Below, one piece after another: positions 6,501 to 8,372 of a DNA stretch of 64,000 nucleotides. This DNA is from Microcoleus sp. FACHB-1515 (GTDB lineage Bacteria > Cyanobacteriota > Cyanobacteriia > Elainellales > Elainellaceae): positions 1-64,000 of the forward strand of contig NZ_JACJPO010000019.1 in assembly GCF_014696105.1 (NCBI RefSeq), in the 5' to 3' direction. Below the pieces are notes generated by a model. That model worked only from the letters and a program-made list of their open reading frames with translations. It was not told the origin of the DNA and ran no database searches. Position numbers and translations under genes: made by a program. Each line of letters begins with the position of its first letter. The first letter of the stretch is position 1.

Positions 6501-8306
6501 ATGAAGAAATGGCTGAAAGCGCAGTTTTTGACTGTGCAAATGGGTGTTGCATTCAGTTTTGCAGCAGTGTCGCTGGTGACAATTGCCAATCGAGAATGGC
6601 AGTCTGCGATCGCGCTGGCTGCCTGCGGAGCGATCGGCCTGCTGCTAGTTTCAAGACGATTGCATCGCAGTATCGATCGCAAACAGGTGGCGATCGAACC
6701 GACCGAAAGCAATCGGTGGGAGTGGAATTTGCGCTCAGACAGTTTCGTTTGGAACCGCGCAACTCGATCGTTTGCAGGCAACTCTGAGGTGCTGCTGGAC
6801 TCGGTTCACCCAGACGATCGCGCGGTTGTTGCCGCAGCGATGCAGCAGGCCAAGCGATCGCGTCCTGGCGACACGATCGCGCAGGAATTTCGCGTCCAGC
6901 AGTCTGACGGTTCTACCTTGTGGCTGGCGGCAACAGGTCGCGTATTGAGCGGCGATCGCATTGCTGGCACGGCGATCGACATCACGCCCTACAAGCAAAC
7001 GGCGATCGAACTTCAGCAAATCAACTCCCAGCTTGAAGCGCAACTTCAACTTCGCACCGCCCAGCTTGAGCAGGCGAACGACCTGGAAACGCGCCTGAAG
7101 CGAATTAGCGACAAGGTGCGCGATTCGCTCGACGAGTCGCAAATTTTGCAAACCGTCGTGCAGGAGTTGGGCGTGGGTTTGGGCGTGCGATCGTGCAATG
7201 CCGCGCTATACGATTTGGTCGATCGCACCAGCACGATTTGCTATGAATACAATTCGACGCTGTTTCCGCTCAAAGGTCACGTCGCAAAAATGGCGAATTT
7301 TGCCGAAGTGTATGACCGTCTGCTGCAAGGCGAATACCTTCAGTTTTGCAATTTCATCGCCAATCCGATGCGCGGACATGTGGTCATGCTCGCCTGTCCG
7401 ATCGCAGACGATCGCGGTGTGCTCGGTGATTTGTGGCTGATTAACGACAAAGACTATTTGTTTCGCGATTTGGAATTGCGCTTGGTGCAGCAGGTGGCAA
7501 ACCAGTGTGCGATCGCCATTCGCCAAGCGCGTCTTTATGAAGCAGCCCAAGCGGAAGTGCGATCGCTAGAGCGAATCAACTGGCTCAAAGATGAATTTTT
7601 GAGTACCGTGTCATATGAACTTTGTGCACCTGTCGCCAATATGAAGCTGTCGATTCGGCTGCTGGAAACGGCGATCGATCAAACAGAATCCACGACAAAA
7701 ACACGCCAATATTTGCAGATTCTCAACAGCGAATGCGATCGCGAAATCCGCTTGATCAACGATTTGCTGGAATTGCAGCGGCTTGATGCGGGACGGCGAT
7801 CGCTGCTCCTGGAATCGATCGATCTGACCAGCTTGCTGCCCCAAGTGGTCGCCGCATTTCAACCCCGCGCCCGATCGCGTCAGCAGCACCTTCATCTGGA
7901 GCTTGGATCTGAAGCATTACCCGCGATCGTCACCGATCGCGTCAGTTTCGATCGCATTCTCAACGAACTGCTCACGAACGCCTGCAAGTTTTCGCCGCCC
8001 GCCGCCGAAATTGCTGTCACAGTGGAACTGACGGGCGATCGCGTCTGCTTCATCGTTTGCAACAGCGGCGTTGAAATTCCCGCTGCCGAAATGCCTCGCC
8101 TGTTTGACAAGTTCTACCGAGTTCCTCAAGGCGATCCTTGGCAGCAAGGCGGCACAGGGCTTGGCCTCGCGCTCGTCAAGCGGCTTGTCGATCTGCTTGA
8201 AGGTTCAATTCACGTTACTTCTTCATCGAATCAAACCTGCTTCATCGTTCAACTGCCAGACTTGCAGGCGCGATCGCTGCCTGCCGATGTTGCCACCTTT
8301 AGCTAA
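6501..8306 (+). CDS. Histidine kinase-like sensor lacking the phospho-acceptor His
   Basis: A 601-residue sensor protein. One or two hydrophobic segments lie at residues 10-55, followed by a PAS-like domain (about 70-165) with a DITPYKQ-type end. A short coiled coil precedes a GAF domain (about 205-345) and a second short coiled coil. The dimerisation helix and HATPase_c domain (about 465-595) follow. The H-box reads FLSTVSYELCAPVANMKL: the expected His is Tyr372, and the usual ELRTP is ELCAP. The N-box (ILNELLTNACKFS) and the GTGLGLAL lid are normal. The G1 box starts NSG (Asn521) instead of DxG. It therefore looks unable to autophosphorylate on His and may be a pseudokinase. No partner regulator is adjacent. 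Confidence 0.87.
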   Translation: MKKWLKAQFLTVQMGVAFSFAAVSLVTIANREWQSAIALAACGAIGLLLVSRRLHRSIDRKQVAIEPTESNRWEWNLRSDSFVWNRATRSFAGNSEVLLDSVHPDDRAVVAAAMQQAKRSRPGDTIAQEFRVQQSDGSTLWLAATGRVLSGDRIAGTAIDITPYKQTAIELQQINSQLEAQLQLRTAQLEQANDLETRLKRISDKVRDSLDESQILQTVVQELGVGLGVRSCNAALYDLVDRTSTICYEYNSTLFPLKGHVAKMANFAEVYDRLLQGEYLQFCNFIANPMRGHVVMLACPIADDRGVLGDLWLINDKDYLFRDLELRLVQQVANQCAIAIRQARLYEAAQAEVRSLERINWLKDEFLSTVSYELCAPVANMKLSIRLLETAIDQTESTTKTRQYLQILNSECDREIRLINDLLELQRLDAGRRSLLLESIDLTSLLPQVVAAFQPRARSRQQHLHLELGSEALPAIVTDRVSFDRILNELLTNACKFSPPAAEIAVTVELTGDRVCFIVCNSGVEIPAAEMPRLFDKFYRVPQGDPWQQGGTGLGLALVKRLVDLLEGSIHVTSSSNQTCFIVQLPDLQARSLPADVATFS

Positions 8307-8372
8307 TGCGCTTCCCCGCACTGGCTGGAACTGTATTATTTTGAATAAATCAGTATTTGGAAGCCATTCATC

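Follow-up and report, generated by a model that had tools for sequence, protein, structure and literature searches.

Introduction

The Caulobacter crescentus protein DivL carries a tyrosine, Tyr550, where a histidine kinase has its phospho-acceptor histidine, and has neither kinase nor phosphatase activity, yet it signals; its binding partner is DivK~P, and CckA is under its control (PMC4211667). The arginine three positions after the acceptor (H+3), R553, is required for the binding of DivK, and the tyrosine is conserved among the alphaproteobacterial homologues of DivL (PMC4211667).

Here we describe a protein from the cyanobacterium Microcoleus sp. FACHB-1515 with a tyrosine at the same place. 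It is encoded at positions 6501-8306 of the window, that is, of the whole stretch of 64,000 nucleotides analysed (contig NZ_JACJPO010000019.1), which comes from one draft genome assembly of 5.8 Mb in 96 contigs. In common with DivL (PDB 4q20) the protein has the acceptor-position tyrosine, a PAS-containing sensor and the HisKA-HATPase_c fold; phmmer matches the two with an E-value of 4e-16, and the cyanobacterial protein is, like DivL, predicted to be without kinase or phosphatase activity. By analogy, DivL would be its best precedent. However, there are clear differences, in that DivL keeps its docking arginine (R553) whereas Cys375 takes this place in our protein, the arginine and the H+4 threonine both being lost, and in that a non-histidine acceptor is conserved among DivL orthologues whereas here the tyrosine is private to one lineage, the related proteins L007 and L038 having histidine. 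RetS of Pseudomonas (6dk7/6dk8), a kinase that works through binding to another kinase and can serve as a model of partner control, also matches in sequence (E 1e-10), but differs from our protein in keeping its histidine and carrying receiver domains.

Closer to hand is a cyanobacterial GAF-HisKA-HATPase_c subfamily (L007, L038, L073, L074 and others), whose members share with the protein the GAF, DHp and CA domains, 43-56% identity and a G1 box of N-x-G type. The acceptor is histidine in all sampled members except our protein and a glutamine paralogue (L204/L209). The N-terminal sensor also differs, consisting of two segments and one PAS domain in our protein and including several PAS domains in L007 and L038.

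Domain structure and catalytic boxes

The features of the gene, all on the forward strand, are as follows.

6501-8306, forward: open reading frame of 601 amino acids, a PAS-GAF-HisKA-HATPase_c pseudo-histidine kinase (open frame, Pfam domains)
6525-6662, forward: two hydrophobic stretches, residues ~9-29 and ~33-54, a likely membrane anchor (Kyte-Doolittle)
6765-6947, forward: PAS_3 domain, residues 89-149 (Pfam PF08447, E 5e-9)
7134-7520, forward: GAF domain, residues 212-340, more conserved than any other part (Pfam PF01590, E 1e-7)
7587-7793, forward: HisKA or DHp domain, residues 363-431 (Pfam PF00512, E 1.8e-9)
7608-7631, forward: degenerate H-box VSYELCAP (DNA GTG TCA TAT GAA CTT TGT GCA CCT)
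7935-8261, forward: HATPase_c or CA domain, residues 479-587 (Pfam PF02518, E 2e-24)
7956-7991, forward: N-box ILNELLTNACKF, intact, the subfamily form being ILAELLNNACKY (homologue alignment)
8061-8081, forward: G1 box NSGVEIP, its Asn being the subfamily norm (homologue alignment)
8148-8174, forward: G2 box GGTGLGLAL, intact (sequence)

The hydrophobic stretches are those in which 19-residue Kyte-Doolittle windows, beginning at residues 9-11 and 33-36, exceed 1.7. Both HisKA and HATPase_c score above the Pfam cut-off, which gives the protein the fold of a HisKA sensor kinase. The GC3 of the gene, 0.61, is close to that of the neighbouring genes, and no response regulator lies beside it in the window.

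Within the H-box, Tyr372 (TAT, 7614-7616) stands where the acceptor histidine is expected, Cys375 (TGT, 7623-7625) replaces the arginine at H+3 and Ala376 (GCA, 7626-7628) the threonine at H+4, while the glutamate at H+1 is intact. These readings, taken from the codons and from an alignment of 33 homologues, are exactly those of the initial annotation. A misalignment of the Tyr372 position was considered and dropped, as 33 of 33 homologues align histidine in that column. With tyrosine in place of the acceptor we do not class the protein with the active kinases, and with alanine at H+4 it lacks the threonine or asparagine of the HisKA phosphatase motif E/DxxT/N; by its sequence it falls among the pseudo-histidine kinases, which have the kinase fold without at least one catalytic residue. 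Each of the three changes is a single transition from the canonical codon (CAT>TAT, CGT>TGT and ACA>GCA). An error of sequencing or assembly in the H-box might be suspected with a single draft assembly in 96 contigs, but would have to produce three separate transitions of one base each inside a span of 15 bases without disturbing the reading frame; because of this, and because the gene is otherwise intact, we consider an error very unlikely.

The N, G1, F and G2 boxes agree with the subfamily consensus. The initial annotation had noted as a further departure that the G1 box starts with Asn521, but nearly all histidine-bearing homologues also have asparagine here (as NSG, NTG, NFG or NQA), and we have dropped this residue as a mark of decay. 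The description as a likely pseudokinase, with the acceptor missing and the ATP-binding boxes present, is well supported by these motifs.

Could the protein retain a catalytic activity of another kind? One reading is that, with no kinase step, it dephosphorylates or sequesters a response regulator. The acceptor histidine is not strictly required for HisKA phosphatase activity (PMC12632262), and the response-regulator-docking helix outside the H-box is similar to that of L007 and L038. However, the catalytic H+4 threonine of the ExxT motif is here alanine, a change that abolishes the activity across a kinome and is the standard phosphatase-dead mutation of HisKA kinases (PMC11502775), and the H+3 arginine is gone as well. 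We therefore regard this reading as improbable, and a phosphatase acting on another kinase as the least likely of the roles that had been offered for the protein; of the others, it may be a scaffold or an inhibitor. A second reading is that the protein still works as a kinase, with Tyr372 or some other residue as the phosphorylated site, so that a histidine kinase fold would have given rise to a tyrosine kinase. The ATP-binding boxes and the H+1 glutamate are intact, but the loss of arginine and threonine would be unneeded for a mere swap of acceptor, and DivL, with tyrosine at the same place, does not autophosphorylate (PMC4211667). We give this reading hardly any credence.

Derivation of the acceptor loss

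The homologue set consists of the 33 closest sequences (43-56% identity) from 36 genomes of the family and from the genome contig collection; an order-level search covered the same 36 genomes as the family-level search, and no relative above 56% identity was found in this material. Histidine is present in 33 of 33, in a box of the form FL(S/N)T(V/T)SHELR(T/S)P, and the tyrosine, cysteine and alanine of our protein stand at positions that are invariant or nearly so. No Tyr-bearing orthologue was found among the family genomes, in the contig collection or by a pattern search of 386 cyanobacterial genomes. In that search a DNA pattern for boxes of the FLSTVSYEL type gave 6 matches, the gene itself and 5 that are non-kinases by translation, which is no more than a backward-pattern control gave, so these genomes hold no other Tyr version of this H-box. 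The pattern has full sensitivity for the FLSTVSxEL of the subfamily, but catches only 7 of the ~100 kinases in the genome, and is thus silent on tyrosine in other subfamilies.

In a maximum-likelihood tree of 52 sequences the protein is sister, with support of 97/98, to L007, which comes from a different genus in the family, and L038, from a cyanobacterial MAG. Both read HELRTP, and it follows from this grouping that the loss of the acceptor is derived and private to the lineage. The initial annotation had asked whether tyrosine is conserved in orthologues, which the 33 homologues answer in the negative, and had held that histidine throughout the closest lineage would refute the pseudokinase reading. 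Taken literally the sisters do all bear histidine, but this shows a recent, private loss and is no proof of kinase activity.

It had further been suggested that selection keeps the fold, and here the evidence is divided. Identity to L007 and L038 is 71-73% in GAF, 62-64% in DHp and 47-51% in CA. Conservation reaches 95% or more of the homologues in 92 columns, and the protein differs in 7 of them (L359I, H372Y, R375C, W445L, L483F, Y497F and T498S), of which none falls among the 34 columns of the sensor (GAF) and linker and all fall among the 58 of the DHp/CA output module (p 0.04). We infer that 7 of 92 is far below what drift would produce on a branch with a length of 0.55 changes per site. 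Against this, that branch, measured from the shared node, is 1.4-1.7 times as long as those of the sisters (0.40 and 0.32), and Tajima's test bears out the faster rate with most outgroups (chi2 1.4-14.5, depending on the outgroup). Changes unique to the protein, compared with those unique to each sister, number 14 against 10 and 7 in GAF, 16 against 5 and 2 in DHp and 25 against 12 and 8 in CA, although this contrast between sensor and output is not significant alone (p 0.10-0.19) and that of GAF with DHp is suggestive only (p 0.10).

The faster branch and the departures confined to the output module fit a young pseudo-kinase that keeps its sensor, but they also fit early decay, which is the main rival explanation. 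According to this, the acceptor was lost from a redundant sensor kinase whose output module is now under relaxation and which currently serves no function. The three catalytic-box changes, the faster branch and the excess of unique DHp changes over both sisters count in its favour. However, 601 codons without a stop, a normal GC3, the intact state of the other catalytic boxes and a conserved GAF domain are less easily reconciled with it, and the sensor/output difference is, as stated, not significant alone. We consider decay possible, though on balance doubtful.

The locus in a sister species

The same-genus sister species G019 carries the downstream neighbour of the kinase gene, with a protein 92% identical, and its homology to the window begins abruptly at position 8330, 24 bases past the kinase stop (8306). 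Upstream of this point the G019 contig (C333) carries a SAF/dehydrogenase-like gene and, on the reverse strand, a small gene, both unrelated to the window. The abrupt start and the unrelated genes together point to a rearrangement or insertion breakpoint at 8306-8330. The thrB side, upstream in the window, maps to another G019 contig, which ends in that region. No positional orthologue of the kinase is readable in G019, the assembly being 82% complete with a contig end at the locus. For the decay explanation it is relevant that unrelated genes lie directly upstream of the neighbouring gene in G019, the kinase not having been kept at that place, and that a scan of the genome contig collection gave 5 loci, none above 55% identity, and no close relative.

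Other acceptor-less kinases in the genome

A survey of HisKA domains in the genome gave 94 readable boxes, with histidine in 89, glutamine in 4 and tyrosine in 1. Bacteria-wide, 0.9% of HisKA domains are without histidine (PMC12632262); against this figure 5 of 94 is a high proportion (p 0.002), with the reservation that kinases sharing a genome do not count as independent and that the two surveys differ in method.

One of the four glutamine proteins is the paralogue of the same subfamily (C30:82085-83947, forward strand; locus L204:2086-3951), 43% identical to our protein. Its box, VSQALRSP, has glutamine for histidine and alanine for the H+1 glutamate, G019 has the same box, and dN/dS between the two counterparts is 0.089. 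The identical box and the low dN/dS indicate that this subfamily retains a member without the acceptor, and that such members can be functional.

A second is a DICT-HisKA-HATPase_c kinase (C15:86501-87868, forward strand; locus L205:2002-3369; orthologues L231-L280). Every near-complete genome of the family has it (27 of 27), as do 53 of the 116 genomes sampled from the cyanobacterial class. The acceptor in the 50 orthologues read is glutamine in 46, leucine in 3 and histidine in 1, and the orthologues keep the H+1 glutamate (or glutamine) and the H+4 threonine. Judged by these motifs, this family is deeply conserved without an acceptor and is perhaps a dedicated phosphatase or a pseudo-kinase. 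We know of no description of a DICT-HisKA-HATPase_c family with a glutamine acceptor, and a literature search found none.

The remaining two are a kinase at C48:125810-127342 (forward strand; locus L206:1811-3343), with the box HMTQELRTP and a degenerate HATPase_c below the cut-off, and one at C63:2092-3435 (reverse strand; locus L207), with the box NIAQKFRTP and an N-terminal receiver domain, which adjoins a hybrid kinase.

Proposed mechanism

As the alignment and the tree show, this PAS-GAF sensor kinase of a large cyanobacterial subfamily, with its likely membrane anchor, has lost its acceptor histidine, H+3 arginine and H+4 threonine on its own lineage. Without the acceptor there is, by established chemistry, no histidine autophosphorylation and no phosphate for a response regulator, and since the H+4 threonine is lost the ExxT phosphatase activity is probably absent too. 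The dimerisation helices and all ATP-binding boxes remain, so that what is left is probably a dimeric, ATP-binding, membrane-anchored sensor. We propose that it most likely acts without catalysis. It would read a signal through its GAF and PAS domains, switch conformation with bound ATP, and damp or tune a histidine-bearing pathway, either as a partner of a paralogous kinase or by retaining a response regulator. It would thus work in a DivL-like way, without requiring the docking contacts of DivL. The cysteine at H+3 may weaken canonical docking of a response regulator, and as the arginine lost there is the one that DivL needs for DivK, a partnership with a sibling kinase is no less likely than the sensing of a response regulator. 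Possible partners are the histidine-bearing subfamily paralogues at C32:49456-50709 and C39:68714-69967 of the same genome.

Our best explanation is therefore an acceptor-less regulator that acts without catalysis in the manner of DivL, and we hold the chances that this is right to be evenly balanced. The full-length open reading frame of 601 codons and its normal GC3 support a function; the lack of a Tyr orthologue in the searches above, the fast branch, as expected also of early decay, and the lack of an adjacent response regulator count against it. A bolder proposal, which we make only tentatively and think rather unlikely, is that the large kinomes of cyanobacteria keep a pool of histidine kinases that are catalytically silent and serve to tune active paralogues. 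The present protein would be a young recruit to this pool, having lost acceptor, arginine and phosphatase threonine together, and would work only through ATP-dependent heterodimers with a sibling kinase under GAF/PAS control.

Significance

To our knowledge, few pseudo-histidine kinases beyond DivL have been studied, and the protein described here is a further one, apparently private to its lineage. By the survey, kinases without the acceptor appear to be several times as frequent in this genome (5 of 94) as across bacteria (0.9%), and a non-histidine acceptor seems to have persisted in one DICT-domain family through much of the cyanobacteria; this family is more deserving of a study of its own than the kinase at 6501-8306. 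The value of the latter is that a young silent case stands in a subfamily of active kinases, alongside paralogues that are active and an independent glutamine paralogue that is conserved; this makes the loss of catalysis observable, and the same genome allows one to ask if the silent form controls its sibling kinases.
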